A stretch of 64,000 nucleotides of DNA from Pararhizobium qamdonense (GTDB lineage: Bacteria > Pseudomonadota > Alphaproteobacteria > Rhizobiales > Rhizobiaceae), in assembly GCF_029277445.1 (NCBI RefSeq), contig NZ_CP119566.1:2854001-2918000 (forward strand), given 5' to 3'. Shown in pieces: positions 58,135 through 64,000 of this stretch; position 1 is the stretch's first letter, and each line of letters opens with the position of its first letter. The notes below the pieces were generated by a model, which did no database searches, was not told the origin of the DNA, and saw only the letters and a program-made list of their open reading frames with translations. The translations under genes and the position numbers were made by a program.

Positions 58135-58255
58135 CTCCCTCATTCTCGCCCTTGTGGCGGGAATCCAGCCAGCTCAAGTCCTTGAGCTGAAAGACTCTTT
58201 GACCCGACGGACGTCGGGTCGCTGGATTCCCGCCACAAGGGCGAGAATGAGGGAG
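58135..58255. repeat. RIME-like intergenic palindromic element
   Basis: A 121-bp element made of a perfect 35-bp inverted repeat (arms 58135-58169 and 58221-58255, inner end ATCCAGC/GCTGGAT). The arms enclose two smaller perfect hairpins: AGCTCAAG-TC-CTTGAGCT (58171-58188) and GACCCGAC-GGAC-GTCGGGTC (58201-58220). It would fold as a three-armed cloverleaf. Its layout and the CCTCATTC...AATCCAGC pattern resemble the RIME family of rhizobial intergenic mosaic elements. It encodes no protein and sits between two convergent operons. Confidence 0.85.
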
Positions 58256-58307
58256 GTTGGGGTGTGGCTCCCACCAGACAATCATATTTCAGATTGGTCA
58301 GCAGTGC

Positions 58308-59864
58308 CTATTCTACCGTGTATTTCAGCGTTCCCAGCGACCAGCGCACGCCACGGTTTTCCGCATCGCCGGTCCAGGTTTTCTGCAGCCGGGCGACGAT
58401 TTCGCTCAGAGACTGGCGGGCATCGAGCTCTCCATTCAGGCCCTGCGACGATGGCGCTACGTCCTGCAAGTCCACGGCATCGCTGACGACGATGGCGACC
58501 AGCATATTCTCGCCGCTGCCCTCAGCCTCAAAATCGAAGCCATAATAGCCGTCCGGGATCGTCAGCGTCGAACCGGCCGAAAGCGGCGTGATTTTCTGTG
58601 CCAAGTCGTTGGGGAATATCTGCGTGGCGGTACCCTCGCCGTTCACATCGAGAAGGATGAGATGTCCCGCATTTCGGCTGGTGACGGAAATCTCGAAGGC
58701 CTGGCCTTTGTTCAAAGCCGGGCCTTTATCCAGCAATACCGTGACATCGCCCGTATCCGCCTTCCCGACGATGTCGCCGATCGCTTCGACAGGATTGGCA
58801 TCGACATAGGCGGGTGCCACGGCAGCCTCGACCACGACCTCTTGGTAAGCAGGCTCCGGCTTGGCCGCCGGTTGCTGTGCAATTGCCTGTTCCGCCGTGT
58901 CCGGTTCCGGTTTGGCGATGCTGGTGCCGAGCATATCCGGCACGCTTTCCAGCTGCGGATCGAGATTGTCGCAGCCGTCCAGCGTCGCGCAATAGTCCTT
59001 CGATTTGCGGGTCACATATTCGAAAAGCTCGGCATTGCTGACGAGACCGTTGCCATTCGCGTCGGATTCTTCAGGTTTGTAGCCGGCTATGTAAGCGGAT
59101 GTGAAAACGCCATGCCGATCTTCGACCGGCAGGCGAACATCGTCCCACGCCACCTGATAGGCAGCCGCAGCACTCCAGGCGGTCAGCCCACCGGCCGTCA
59201 ATTGCGCGGGTTTATCGACAACACCGAGATCGATGCGCAGGCCCCGTGTTGCCGGCTGTTTGGTGCTTTGCGCAAACGGGCGCGGCAGATAACGGGCGCC
59301 TTGCAAGCCTGATACGGCCTCTCGCGACAAGGAACGGGAAATCGTCCCGGAATGGCAGGCATCGATCACCAGCGTCACTGCCCTGCCCTTCAGTTTCTCC
59401 AGCACGGCCTCCAGTTCGTCATCGAGGATGACATTGGTCCAGTCCTCGTCACCGGCTTTGAGATCATAGGTTGAAATGGCCTCGTCCATCCCATCCTCTT
59501 CGTCGCCACTCATATCCTTGACCTGCAGGCCATGCCCGGAAAAATACAGATAGACCCGGTCGCCCGGCGACGTTCCGGCAATCAGCCATTCGTCCATCGA
59601 CGACAAAATCGCCTGACGGGTGGCCTTGTCATCGGTGAGGACCCGGATTTCCTCAGGCTTGAACTGCAGCGTGCCGGTCAACAGAGACTGGATTGCCTTC
59701 ACATCGTTCTTCGGTCCATGCAGAAACATGTCTTCCGGCAGGTTTTCATAGGTGCCGATGCCGATGACCAGCGCCCGGTCCTGCGCCCACGCCCCTGCCG
59801 GTTGCGCCCCCAGCGATGCCAGGCACCAGAGCGCGGCTGTGGCAGTGTTGCGCAAAACCGTCAT
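58308..59864 (-). CDS. Exported caspase-family protease with EF-hand-like loop and DUF4384-like domain
   Basis: A 518-residue protein. A signal peptide covers about residues 1-28 (ends GAWA/QDR). The caspase-like (peptidase C14) domain starts ALVIGIGTYENLPED and holds the dyad His111 (YLYFSGHGLQ) and Cys170 (VIDACHSGT). A canonical 12-residue EF-hand loop lies at 268-279 (DANGNGLVSNAE). After a Pro/Ala/Glu linker (about 312-365), a C-terminal DUF4384-like beta domain spans about 375-460 (LNKGQAFEISVTSRNAGHLI, LLDVNGEGTATQIFPND). The ATG at 59864 overlaps the stop of the preceding protease gene by 1 nt (TGATG). It is the last gene of the operon. Substrate and cleavage specificity are unknown. 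Confidence 0.88.
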   Translation of the reverse strand: MTVLRNTATAALWCLASLGAQPAGAWAQDRALVIGIGTYENLPEDMFLHGPKNDVKAIQSLLTGTLQFKPEEIRVLTDDKATRQAILSSMDEWLIAGTSPGDRVYLYFSGHGLQVKDMSGDEEDGMDEAISTYDLKAGDEDWTNVILDDELEAVLEKLKGRAVTLVIDACHSGTISRSLSREAVSGLQGARYLPRPFAQSTKQPATRGLRIDLGVVDKPAQLTAGGLTAWSAAAAYQVAWDDVRLPVEDRHGVFTSAYIAGYKPEESDANGNGLVSNAELFEYVTRKSKDYCATLDGCDNLDPQLESVPDMLGTSIAKPEPDTAEQAIAQQPAAKPEPAYQEVVVEAAVAPAYVDANPVEAIGDIVGKADTGDVTVLLDKGPALNKGQAFEISVTSRNAGHLILLDVNGEGTATQIFPNDLAQKITPLSAGSTLTIPDGYYGFDFEAEGSGENMLVAIVVSDAVDLQDVAPSSQGLNGELDARQSLSEIVARLQKTWTGDAENRGVRWSLGTLKYTVE

Positions 59865-61402
59865 CACAAGTGTTCCCGTGTGTAGAGCGGCTGGATTGCC
59901 ACGCTCGTATCGGTGCCGTCGAGCCGCGTGACCAGAAGCTTCAGTACAGTGGCGGCATCCACGCTCTTGCTGGCCAAAGCCGCGCCGATCGCATCGATAG
60001 GTTCATTGGTCGAGATCACGATCAGATGATCGGCGCCGAAGGGTTCGACCACCTGCAGATTGCTGAGCTTGAACCCGGCACTCGCCGTTCCCTCCGACTG
60101 CACATCCAGCAACTGTATCTGCCCGGTGTTGGCCAGATTGAACACAACCATGTTTCTATAGCCGGAGGCCGGTGCATTGAAGGCAATCTTGTCGCCGGCG
60201 GCGTAGATGTCCTTCTGCGGCGTCAGGGACACTGTGCCCGGATTCTGGCTCGCCATGATCTTCAGGAAATCGAGCAGGATGAACTTATCGACAACCGGCT
60301 GTATCGAGCGGCCATCGATATGCTCGCCGGCAACGTCGCCGTTTGGCGTGTAGACAATGCCGCTCGCGGCATCCCAGCGATAGGGCACGCCTGTGCCACC
60401 CACATTGTCCGGCACGGCATCGGAGCCCTCGACAGATAGGGCCAGCTTGCCATTCCAGCCGGATTCGCGGACGGATTTATGCATCTTCTCCGCTTCCGGT
60501 GCGATTGCCACAGTGGCGCTGCGCGTCAACGGCATGACCACCTCATCGTCGGAGCGTGGCAGTTGCGGTGTGAAATTGGGAACCTGCAGGGCCTCCGACT
60601 GGGTCTTCACAGTGGCAAAGACATAATCCTCGAGCTCCACCCGCGACAGGCGGCCGTCACCATTGCGATCTGCCGCCCCCTCGACAGCGCGGGCAAAACT
60701 CCAGCTCAAGGCACCGCGCGGCTCGCCGCTGATAATGACCTCAGGCGACGGCTGGCTCTCCAGCGATGCGGCAAGCACCGTGACAGTGCGAAATTGAGTT
60801 TCTTTCACCGCAGCACCCGACACCGCCTCCTCAGACGGCGGCGGCAGCTTCACCGTGACGGCATGGGCAAGGCGGGTCTTGCCGGAAAAGGACCGGCTCA
60901 TGCCGCCGGAATGGCAGCTGTCGGAGACGAACAGGACCTGCACGCCTTTGGCTTCCGCTTCGGAAAACCAAGCATTCAGCTCGTTATCGACGATGATCTC
61001 ATGGTCGGTTTCGGCGGCGCGGCTGCGGTCGAAGCCTGGCAATTGCAGGAACTCGTCGAGACCGTCGGCCTCGTCCCCGGCCACAAGTTCCGGCATCTGC
61101 GCACCGTGCCCGGCATAGGTGAAGATGATCGTGTCGCCCTTGGCCGCACGGGCAACAAACCCGCTCCAGGCCGCACGGATATCGTCCTTGCGGGCGGCGG
61201 CATCGAAAAACGCCGCGATCTGATCAACGCTTGCCCGCCGCAACGACGCTTCGACATCCTTGGCATCCTTGACGGCACCGTCCAGGCTGACCTCATAGGG
61301 GTAGGCATCGACGCCGACAACAAGAGCGAAAGTCGCTGAGGATGCGGCACCGAGCGGCACTGCAGCCAGGAGGAGAGCAAGGGCCAGGCGGCGCAGCATC
61401 AT
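59864..61402 (-). CDS. Second exported caspase-family protease with EF-hand-like loop
   Basis: A 512-residue protein with a signal peptide (MLRRLALALLLAAVPLGAASS) leading straight into the caspase-like fold ATFALVVGVDAYPYEV. Catalytic residues are His99 (IFTYAGHGAQMPEL) and Cys163 (VSDSCHSGGMSRS). A perfect EF-hand loop is at 245-256 (DRNGDGRLSRVE). The C-terminal region 391-465 (LTPQKDIYAAGDKIAFN, MVVFNLANTGQIQLLDVQSE) resembles DUF4384. It differs strongly from its neighbour outside the motifs, so this is not a recent duplicate. The start follows the stop of the OmpA gene without any gap, with GGAG 6 nt upstream, and the stop overlaps the next protease gene. Confidence 0.87.
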   Translation of the reverse strand: MMLRRLALALLLAAVPLGAASSATFALVVGVDAYPYEVSLDGAVKDAKDVEASLRRASVDQIAAFFDAAARKDDIRAAWSGFVARAAKGDTIIFTYAGHGAQMPELVAGDEADGLDEFLQLPGFDRSRAAETDHEIIVDNELNAWFSEAEAKGVQVLFVSDSCHSGGMSRSFSGKTRLAHAVTVKLPPPSEEAVSGAAVKETQFRTVTVLAASLESQPSPEVIISGEPRGALSWSFARAVEGAADRNGDGRLSRVELEDYVFATVKTQSEALQVPNFTPQLPRSDDEVVMPLTRSATVAIAPEAEKMHKSVRESGWNGKLALSVEGSDAVPDNVGGTGVPYRWDAASGIVYTPNGDVAGEHIDGRSIQPVVDKFILLDFLKIMASQNPGTVSLTPQKDIYAAGDKIAFNAPASGYRNMVVFNLANTGQIQLLDVQSEGTASAGFKLSNLQVVEPFGADHLIVISTNEPIDAIGAALASKSVDAATVLKLLVTRLDGTDTSVAIQPLYTREHL

Positions 61403-62302
61403 TCAATTCTCCACATCGACTTCGACGCGCCGGTTCATCTGGTTCAGCGTCTCCTCATCATAAGCGCTGGCATCATCCGCCTTGAACGGTTCGTCCTCAC
61501 CTTTGCCTAAGGTTTTCCAAACGCCTGCATACCCCTCGGCAACGAGGTATCCCGCCAGCGCATCAGCGCGTGCCAGCGACAAAACACGATTGGCTTCCTG
61601 CGTGCCGACGGGGTCGGTGTGTCCGGTGAGCGTGATCGCCTTGGGCTTGACCGATTTCAGGCATTCCGACAGGTCCCTGGCGGAAGCCAGCCCTTCCGGG
61701 GTAAATTCCGCCGTGCCGAAGACATAGCGCACCGGCGTCGATTTCTTCTTCAGGGAGACGCCGCGATAGCTGATCTTGCAGGCGCCGCGCACAGTGAGTT
61801 TTACGGGGTTTGGGGAGGCAAGCCGCATCTCCGTTGCCATATGATCGAGCCTGACGATATAGGCCTGATCCGGCGCCATCCATTGCGGCGTCAGCACCTC
61901 GTTGCCGGCATCCTCCAGCGCCAGCTGATAGTAGCGGGCCGCCGCCTCATAAGTCCGCCGGTCACGGTTGATGTCCCCCAGCGCGTCGAAAACCTGCCAG
62001 GGTGCCGAATTGCTTGTGCGGATCGCCTCAAGCTCGCGTTCGAAATCTGCGAGATTTGCACCCTGCCCGACAGCGCCGACAATCCGGTTGAAGGACGCCA
62101 GCGCCGCCACGCGGTTAATCATCGCCTTGTCGTCGGCGGTACAACCGGGCTTCGGCATGCCGGCAATCTGCTTGGCCAATGCCTCGTTGCCCGCATTGGT
62201 GGCCTTGGCAATCTGCGCCAGGGCATCGCAGGCGGCCGTTGCCGTCCCGGCACAGAAAAATATCAGCAGCGATGCCCCGGCAAGAACCCTCAATCGCATC
62301 AT
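61403..62302 (-). CDS. OmpA-domain protein of the caspase operon
   Basis: A 299-residue exported protein. A signal peptide (MMRLRVLAGASLLIFFCAGTATA) is followed by a helical repeat-like middle part (about 25-170; DALGDINRDRRTYEAAARYY looks TPR-like). The C-terminal OmpA-like domain (about 195-298) contains the peptidoglycan-binding pattern ITLTGHTDPVGTQEANRVLS and LARADALAGYLVAEG, ending NQMNRRVEVDVEN. Such domains bind diaminopimelate of peptidoglycan. The start could also be 62314 (MERRMMRLR); both have GGAAA-type sites. No lipobox is evident, so it is expected to be soluble in the periplasm. It is directly coupled to the downstream protease gene. Confidence 0.87.
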   Translation of the reverse strand: MMRLRVLAGASLLIFFCAGTATAACDALAQIAKATNAGNEALAKQIAGMPKPGCTADDKAMINRVAALASFNRIVGAVGQGANLADFERELEAIRTSNSAPWQVFDALGDINRDRRTYEAAARYYQLALEDAGNEVLTPQWMAPDQAYIVRLDHMATEMRLASPNPVKLTVRGACKISYRGVSLKKKSTPVRYVFGTAEFTPEGLASARDLSECLKSVKPKAITLTGHTDPVGTQEANRVLSLARADALAGYLVAEGYAGVWKTLGKGEDEPFKADDASAYDEETLNQMNRRVEVDVEN

Positions 62303-62386
62303 GCGCCTTTCCATTTCATTTCCAGTCAAACCGCCATGTCCAGCCTGACCGAACAGGCCAACCGGCACTGCGCGGCCGACGCCCGC

Positions 62387-64000
62387 CTATTTTATGATCT
62401 CGAAGGTCACCACTTGCAGGCCGCTGGCGCCCTTGTCGTCCTCGGCTTTCTTGGCAAGGTTGATCGCCAGTCCGCGCGTCGGCGGTAGATGCGACTGCGC
62501 CACCAGCTGGCGCGCCCGCTCCACGGTCAGCTTTTGATCGCCCAGCCCACCCTCGCGGCAGTAGGCGATCATGGTTTCGGCCGGTGCCGGCGTGTCGAAG
62601 GTCAGATCGCCGGTTCCGGGCTGCGGGATCAGGCGTTTCTCGCCCGGTTGCAGCGTGGTATTGCCGATCATCGCATCGGGAATGACTTCCACGTTGCCGG
62701 TCTCTTCCACATACAGGATCTGCAATTCGCAGGCCCTGTTGGCACTCAGCTCGAAGGACAGCTGGTCGCCGACCTTCGCGGTGGTCGTGGCCACATGCAG
62801 CGCCAGTTCAAGCTTGCCGCGATCGGCAGGCTGCTCCTGGCGATAGGCGGGCGTCGCGGCCGCGATTGTCTGCGGCTTGACATAATCCTGCTGCGCCGTT
62901 TGACCGGCCACGTCCTCACCTCCACCGGCCGTGGCCACGTGGACGGTTGCCGTGTCGAGCGGCTTCAGCTGCATCAGGGGATGCAGAAGCAGCGGAAATT
63001 GCTGCTCGACCTCGGCGCGGGGGACCGTCGCGCCCGCCTCAAGCGTCGTCACCCAGTCGATGCCAAGCCGCAGCGTATCGACATCCTCCACCCGCTTGAT
63101 CGCCGAGGACAACTCTGTCGGCGTCATGTCGAACTCAGCCGCGAGCGCATCGAAATCGAGTTCATCCTCATATTTGTCGCCAAAATAGGTGACGAGTTCG
63201 GCATTGCCGGGCGCCTGCATGCTCTGAGCGCTGCCATCTGGCGTCGGCTCGGTCACACCGAGCTTGACCAGCGCCTCGACGAAACGCTGCCGGTCCTTGT
63301 TATAGGCGGCATCAAGCTCTTCCTGCGGCACGTACATATCCAAGAGAATGGCCTGCTGATCCCGGGTGAACAGCGTCGATGTCTGGATATGCTCGCGCAG
63401 CTGGTCGCGTTTCGACAGGATGCCGTTGGCATGGCAATCGAAACAGGAGCGGGCATTGATGATCTCGACCCCCTTGCCGATCGGCCGCTTGCGGAAGGAC
63501 ACGATCGAGGTTGGCCCGATATCCAGCTGCTTTCCCGCCGCTGTCGACAGGTAATAGCCCTGCAGCCCGTTCGGCAGCGAGAAGATCATCTCGCCGCCAT
63601 CGTGCTCAAACGGCGTCAGACCGCCATCGAACGGTTCCAGTTCCTTCGGCCCTTGCGGAAAACGCTTCAGCACCTGGCGGCCGACATCGCCGCCGAAATC
63701 ATAGGACTTCCAGTAGTAGCCGCCGAACGGCATATCGTGGCGTTCCAGCATGCGGTTATGATCTGAAACCCCTGACGATCCATCGGCAAAACCCGCGCGC
63801 AGCACCTGGCGGCGGCGGATATTGTCATCGACATTGATCTGGAACCGCTGTTCGAGTTCGCGGATATGGGTCGGCAGCTTCATCAGCCGGTTGTAGATCT
63901 TTGGTTTGGCGGCATTGGCCATGAACCAGTCGATGCGCATGATCGGCAGGACGGTGCCGGTTTCCTTGGTGAGCGCCAGAAGCGAGGCATCGCTGGCGGG
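62387..64000 (-). CDS. CxxCH-containing (haem c-like) protein with C-terminal DUF4384-like domain, 5' end outside window
   Basis: The frame is open to the window edge, giving at least 537 residues without the N-terminus; sequence before the first internal ATG (63940) continues in good coding style, so the true start lies outside. The visible N-terminal part (RIDWFMANAAKPKIY, RAGFADGSSGVSDHNRMLER, PFGGYYWKSYDFGGDVGRQ, GGEMIFSLPNGLQGYYL) belongs to a family of cytochrome-c-like exported proteins. One haem-attachment motif CFDCH (SCFDCHANG) lies at visible residues 186-190. The C-terminal about 110 residues form a DUF4384-like domain (KVGDQLSFELSANRACELQI, VIPDAMIGNTTLQPGEKRLI). It is followed after about 70-85 nt by the OmpA gene on the same strand. 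Confidence 0.8.
   Translation of the reverse strand, partial: PASDASLLALTKETGTVLPIMRIDWFMANAAKPKIYNRLMKLPTHIRELEQRFQINVDDNIRRRQVLRAGFADGSSGVSDHNRMLERHDMPFGGYYWKSYDFGGDVGRQVLKRFPQGPKELEPFDGGLTPFEHDGGEMIFSLPNGLQGYYLSTAAGKQLDIGPTSIVSFRKRPIGKGVEIINARSCFDCHANGILSKRDQLREHIQTSTLFTRDQQAILLDMYVPQEELDAAYNKDRQRFVEALVKLGVTEPTPDGSAQSMQAPGNAELVTYFGDKYEDELDFDALAAEFDMTPTELSSAIKRVEDVDTLRLGIDWVTTLEAGATVPRAEVEQQFPLLLHPLMQLKPLDTATVHVATAGGGEDVAGQTAQQDYVKPQTIAAATPAYRQEQPADRGKLELALHVATTTAKVGDQLSFELSANRACELQILYVEETGNVEVIPDAMIGNTTLQPGEKRLIPQPGTGDLTFDTPAPAETMIAYCREGGLGDQKLTVERARQLVAQSHLPPTRGLAINLAKKAEDDKGASGLQVVTFEIIK

Follow-up and report, generated by a model that had tools for sequence, protein, structure and literature searches.

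Does a cytochrome c govern a bacterial caspase, as in animal apoptosis, though via unrelated proteins? The question is raised by an operon of Pararhizobium qamdonense, a soil bacterium akin to the rhizobia of root nodules. It lies at the edge of a 64,000-nucleotide stretch of DNA, positions 2854001-2918000 of contig C1 in the whole genome G000, which we call the window. The core of the operon encodes, in this order and entirely on the minus strand, a flavocytochrome b (FRE), a tetrahaem protein, an OmpA-domain protein and two metacaspases (Table 1). The order of the genes is conserved, and it links two exported-looking caspases to motifs that make up a full electron chain ending in c haems. 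A preliminary description, made from the letters of the window alone, had recognised four consecutive minus-strand genes and read them as a peptidoglycan-associated, possibly redox-linked protease set. The four genes were recovered, and past position 64000 the operon indeed continues, to the complete 1092-residue tetrahaem protein, to FRE and then to an open reading frame (ORF) of 91 residues. The set is well supported by co-conservation and its redox part is larger than had been claimed, but the proteases are not a fixed part of it. At present the locus is best explained by proteolysis in the envelope under the control of haem, a reading that we favour tentatively, with a little less than even confidence.

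Motifs of an Electron Chain Beside Two Metacaspases

FRE matches three Pfam models over the cut-off, Ferric_reduct, FAD_binding_8 and NAD_binding_1, and thus belongs with the ferric reductases and NADPH oxidases among the NAD(P)H flavocytochromes b. Such proteins carry electrons from NAD(P)H via FAD to two b haems, across the membrane. H91, H105, H164 and H177 are invariant in 77/77 homologues and would, from the sequence, be the four haem-ligating membrane histidines. In its Ferric_reduct, FAD and NAD domains and its four invariant membrane histidines the protein resembles the FRE/NOX-type flavocytochromes b; it differs in that its gene is coupled to those of a c-type tetrahaem protein and of proteases.

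The N terminus of the tetrahaem protein matches Cytochrom_C and Cytochrome_CBB3, and PSCyt1 (residues 357-406) and DUF4384 (964-1034) follow in Pfam. Residues ~410-960 have no Pfam match over the cut-off, and the central haem domain has no match in Pfam or NCBIfam. The haem motif and DUF4384 that had been assigned to this gene are both present, but there are four CxxCH motifs and not one. They lie at residues 76, 220, 357 and 741, all invariant in 14 aligned homologues, and each of 24 listed loci encodes four. The operon therefore encodes the motifs of a full chain, from NAD(P)H to FAD, to haem b and on to four c haems. In the next gene, the OmpA domain had been correctly recognised (Pfam E 8e-11); D252 and R267, invariant in 58/58 aligned proteins, are presumably its peptidoglycan-binding residues.

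Both metacaspases match Peptidase_C14 in Pfam over the cut-off (metacaspase 1, E 2e-12; metacaspase 2, E 5e-21), and the His/Cys dyads attributed to them earlier are borne out: His99/Cys163 of metacaspase 1 is intact in 58/58 homologues and His112/Cys171 of metacaspase 2 in 46/49. An acidic stretch aligns with metacaspases, and the model and fold comparison of metacaspase 1 gave a caspase fold. DUF4384-like tails had been expected on both proteins. That of metacaspase 2 matches the Pfam model (E 1e-12), but that of metacaspase 1 has no Pfam match, and in profile comparison it reaches a probability of 4.9% against the metacaspase 2 tail, as opposed to 74.8% for the metacaspase 2 tail against that of the tetrahaem protein. 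By analogy with other metacaspases, cleavage would probably occur after Arg/Lys and depend on calcium. Export is predicted from leader sequences seen by inspection and from a crude score, positive for 93/105 core caspases and 34/38 other caspases versus 415/1299 control ORFs, many false calls being caused by long ORF starts. The whole of G000 (6.24 Mb) has just three C14 matches, and the operon accounts for two. The third C14 gene (L001, C1:3372563-3373222), in a 752-codon open frame, lies far from it.

Conservation of the Gene Set

In a search of 61 genomes, the haem protein was matched over most or all of its length in 24/25 genomes of the genus, including the window's and with the exception of G011, and its specific part was matched in 4/12 other sampled genera of the family. 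In broader samples, which include the window's own genome each time, the specific part occurs in 43/394 genomes of the family, 2/385 of the class and 3/398 of the phylum. Within the genus, the genes for FRE, haem protein, OmpA protein and metacaspase 1 stand in the same order wherever the short stretch at hand extends to them.

A scan of named genomes found 132 relatives, and the best 80 of these 132 correspond to 79 distinct loci, taken with up to 10 kb on each side. Profiles built in this analysis place FRE in 77/79 loci (both misses at contig ends), OmpA in 78/79 (the miss on a 5.8-kb contig) and a C14 caspase within the fetched stretch in 71/79; many of the loci come from close relatives, so these counts are not independent. 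The caspase count nevertheless exceeds what chance would give, G000 as a whole having three C14 matches. The preliminary description had proposed that a lack of conserved co-occurrence would speak against its reading; the genes do co-occur. The OmpA gene may precede or follow the haem gene, and a quick tree built from 61 haem proteins requires at least three such changes of place on well-supported branches, so the association outlasted rearrangement. We are highly confident that the gene module is real and conserved.

The eight loci of the 79 that lack a caspase include two on contigs shorter than 6 kb (L083, L104). Two Roseibium loci (L085, L086) encode CHAT proteins of 1656 and 1651 residues, and in Hoeflea marina (L101) a TPR-CHAT protein of 1432 residues is encoded directly upstream of FRE. 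The remaining three of the eight, L082, L089 and L092, showed no protease.

Exchange of the Protease in a Shorter Haem Form

Proteins of ~670-910 residues that lack the dihaem part likewise contain the central haem domain. Genome G143 belongs to a family that is probably Rhodobacteraceae, because the protein P0241 of Tropicibacter alexandrii is alike. In this family 20/345 genomes match, with 13 short and 7 long forms. At all 13 short-form loci (L118, L138-L149) the haem gene has a trypsin-type gene and an OmpA gene close by, whereas neither FRE nor a caspase scores above 30 bits within 17-20 kb. Trypsin_2 is over the Pfam cut-off at each of the 13; the trypsin proteins that were scanned carry SH3_3, Sel1, WD40 or SPOR parts. 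Around the long forms, FRE and a caspase occur in the stretch in 7/7 cases, with FRE ~6 kb away on the other strand at L155, and an OmpA gene in 6/7, adjoining the haem gene in 4. Per genome, the background is 4-20 Trypsin_2 genes (13 genomes), 9-17 OmpA genes (20 genomes) and 1-20 C14 genes (20 genomes), so such neighbourhoods are rare by chance; some long-form genomes are rich in C14 genes, with up to 20 in G1237.

The protease is thus not a fixed part of the module: hardly any locus lacks the haem protein or an OmpA gene, but the protease that accompanies them may be a caspase or, in its place, a CHAT or trypsin protein. That the haem protein is kept while the protease is exchanged suggests a haem-controlled envelope protease system.

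The same loci bear on another explanation, by which FRE and the tetrahaem protein would supply electrons to the exported proteases so that their catalytic cysteines stay reduced although the compartment is oxidising, with protease control achieved otherwise. In its favour, FRE and the dihaem part accompany caspase or CHAT loci, whereas none of the 13 trypsin loci read has them, and trypsin needs no thiol. However, the haem protein is retained in these serine-protease loci, and the correlation between FRE and protease is confounded with the two types of haem protein. Furthermore, L119 and L121 place a caspase beside a shorter haem form with no FRE in the stretches read (Pfam-checked for L119 only), which speaks against a strict rule of form and protease as well. 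We consider electron supply to the proteases unlikely.

Receptor-Like Fusions of the Central Haem Domain

A search with distant members scored 7997 candidates and yielded 757 proteins at E up to 1e-10, the best 120 of which were examined. Fusion partners in these 120 were assigned by reading, with nine proteins scanned again: FGE-sulfatase (9), DUF4384 (7), Ser/Thr kinase (5), FHA (2), Sel1 (2) and PG_binding_1 (1), and TPR or WD40 repeats more commonly than any of these. Two CxxCH motifs are present in 116/120. Beyond the Alphaproteobacteria, the source named is a planctomycete, most of the 120 entries being without an organism. In 5/5 kinase and 2/2 FHA proteins, one hydrophobic helix separates the cytoplasmic-type domain from the first CxxCH. 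The kinase fusions (P0254, P0265, P0287, P0313, P0331), with a single membrane helix followed by PSCyt1 and the central haem module, are possible haem receptor kinases. It is mainly this receptor-like layout of the kinase and FHA fusions that leads us to prefer a sensor over an enzyme.

The enzyme would be a redox enzyme in its own right, for example a reductase or peroxidase with a substrate outside the cytoplasm, and the proteases would do no more than process its parts or turn them over. In its favour, the operon encodes a full electron chain, and FRE, haem protein and OmpA protein occur with no protease nearby at L089 and L092. In addition, apart from the CxxCH motifs seven distant members share no invariant His or Met; an open or variable haem site would agree with this but is not proven by it. 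On the other hand, the haem protein repeatedly has a protease of one of three unrelated types as its neighbour, and fusions to kinase and FHA domains are hard to square with processing. An independent redox enzyme is, in our judgement, improbable.

A Proposed Model of Haem-Governed Envelope Proteolysis

In the preferred reading, haem-governed proteolysis, the PSCyt1 haem domain and the second haem domain, new to Pfam and often joined by DUF4384, would form an extracytoplasmic c-type haem receptor or relay that controls the co-encoded exported proteases, while the OmpA-domain protein would anchor the set at the peptidoglycan; the partners might form a physical complex. In this genome, the N-terminal dihaem cytochrome c part would take electrons from the membrane flavocytochrome b, on a path that starts at cytoplasmic NAD(P)H and leads by way of FAD and a pair of b haems to the c haems in the periplasm. 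The two metacaspases would be switched by the central haem, according to its redox or ligand state, and may cut proteins of the envelope, the cuts probably falling after basic residues and calcium probably being needed. The operon products may sense stress, as had been suggested.

Several observations weigh against this reading. The model of the tetrahaem protein is confident (pLDDT 84), but the fold comparison lists covered only its DUF4384 part, modelled as a beta sandwich, so the central domain may be a sensor or an enzyme. At L082, L089 and L092, with sequence on both sides, no protease was found, the Pfam scan covering some of the neighbours only. The export score is crude, as its positive calls among the control ORFs show. 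Finally, four Ensifer loci (L057, L059, L062, L077) have a damaged metacaspase 2, which lacks one of its dyad residues at three of them and is broken into fragments in Ensifer sesbaniae, with metacaspase 1 intact at all four. Such changes fit the pseudo-orthocaspases, Gln-Cys variants included, that have been reported in Rhizobiales (PMC6426788).

A role in conflict or suicide, in which the proteases upon attack would degrade proteins of the envelope and thereby kill either the cell itself or a competitor, is very unlikely: published conflict systems do use caspase, CHAT and trypsin as effectors (PMC7159879, PMC10907252), the PADLOC caspase model matches both metacaspases and the distribution in family and phylum is patchy, but Pfam, NCBIfam and PADLOC recognised no NTPase, EAD or EACC1 families in the five operon proteins, the caspase_w_EACC1 model matching the caspases below its cut-off, and the presence of the haem gene in nearly every genome of the genus suggests a stable role.

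A broader view may be considered, to which we give slightly less credence. The module might represent a new class of envelope signalling, in which one c-type haem receptor module (PSCyt1 plus the second haem domain) is wired to three unrelated types of exported protease in Alphaproteobacteria and elsewhere, across a membrane helix, to Ser/Thr kinases and FHA proteins. In Rhizobiaceae, an NAD(P)H flavocytochrome b of its own would drive a circuit from electron transport through cytochrome c to a caspase outside the cytoplasm.

Comparison With Known Systems

Among the papers listed by a literature search, which had little reach into subscription papers, none describes this gene set. The closest precedent for its protease half is a survey of 2012, in which metacaspases occur in predicted operons, OmpA domains in 14 metacaspase operons and more than one metacaspase in 20 (PMC3501461). 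Unlike here, the accessible text of that survey contains neither of the words cytochrome and heme, and no set of FRE, haem protein, OmpA protein and protease was found in it. In the NTP-dependent conflict systems, too, parts that stay constant are combined with caspase-, CHAT- or trypsin-type effectors that can replace one another, but as far as their accessible descriptions go these systems are built on NTPases and on adapters (EADs, EACC1) unrecognised in this operon (PMC7159879, PMC10907252); the word cytochrome appears twice in the text of PMC7159879.

Extracytoplasmic sensors with c-type haem are known from haem Cache domains (PMC12889525) and from the haem PAS chemoreceptors of Geobacter (PMC8396549, PMC3460858). 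With these the haem protein would share a covalent c haem in a predicted extracytoplasmic sensor module; it differs in that the central domain shows no sequence match to them, the whole haem protein having no Pfam match to a Cache or PAS domain, and in that the partner is a protease. PSCyt1 itself is shared with the planctomycete-specific cytochromes, whose gene organisations were described in 2017 with their function stated as unknown (PMC5615132). In contrast to the organisations given there, PSCyt1 is followed here by another haem domain, and FRE, OmpA protein and proteases are the neighbours. The protease, OmpA and kinase partners offer a concrete hypothesis for at least this branch of PSCyt-type organisations. 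The proposed role, compared by description only, resembles that of TfcP of Myxococcus xanthus, a cytochrome c of the periplasm by which an envelope protein dependent on calcium is regulated; TfcP, however, serves PilY1 and type IV pili (PMC8833165).

Layout of the Locus and Neighbouring Genes

The FRE gene lies upstream of the tetrahaem gene on the same strand, with a gap of 18 nt. The tight spacing reported earlier for the following genes depends on the starts chosen. Between the tetrahaem and OmpA genes the gap is 72 or 84 nt counted from inner Met codons, as reported, but 18 nt with the longest start; the OmpA and metacaspase 1 genes abut (0 nt); and the metacaspase genes overlap by 1 nt from the ATG, again as reported, but by 4 nt from the preceding GTG.

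Table 1. Features of the operon and of its upstream extension, in window positions; those above 64000 lie beyond the window.
Feature	Position	Strand	Basis
91-residue ORF, leader-like start	67064-67338 (L004:11065-11339)	-	Upstream sequence
FRE (439 aa)	65684-67003	-	ORF, Pfam
Tetrahaem protein, whole ORF (1092 aa)	extends up to 65665 (L004:9666)	-	ORF, Pfam
Tetrahaem protein gene, 3' part, cut by window edge	62387..64000	-	ORF, Pfam, alignment of 14 homologues
CFDCH haem motif, residue 741, central haem domain	63431..63445	-	Invariant in 14/14 homologues
DUF4384 of tetrahaem protein, residues 964-1034	62564..62776	-	Pfam E 2e-6; beta-sandwich model
OmpA-domain protein (321 aa if the longest start is used; start probably around 62302-62314)	61403..62368	-	Pfam
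Metacaspase 1 (512 aa); His99 codon 61106-61108, Cys163 codon 60914-60916	59864..61402	-	Pfam, dyad alignment, model and fold comparison
Metacaspase 2 with DUF4384 (519 aa); His112 codon 59532-59534, Cys171 codon 59355-59357	58308..59867	-	Pfam, dyad alignment

At the downstream end of the operon, the plus-strand genes encode what we take, from their ORFs, to be an amino-acid ABC transporter. Beyond the other end and outside the window, divergent to the putatively exported 91-residue ORF, lies the gene of a serralysin-type M10 protease with RTX repeats (L004:11447-12973, plus strand). Serralysin and the 91-residue ORF are both present in 26/71 loci and both absent from the other 45; given this co-occurrence, the 91-residue product may act on behalf of the serralysin, perhaps as its inhibitor or chaperone. 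A palindrome-like intergenic repeat, 87% identical over 136 bases, flanks the stretch of serralysin and operon at 58169-58303 and L004:13093-13228.

Split ORFs were seen in single genomes, affecting FRE and OmpA at L042 and OmpA and metacaspase 1 at L084, and would reflect sequencing error or decay. Relatives of the haem protein also occur on fourteen contigs of the viral collection (L124-L137), which are possibly host DNA.
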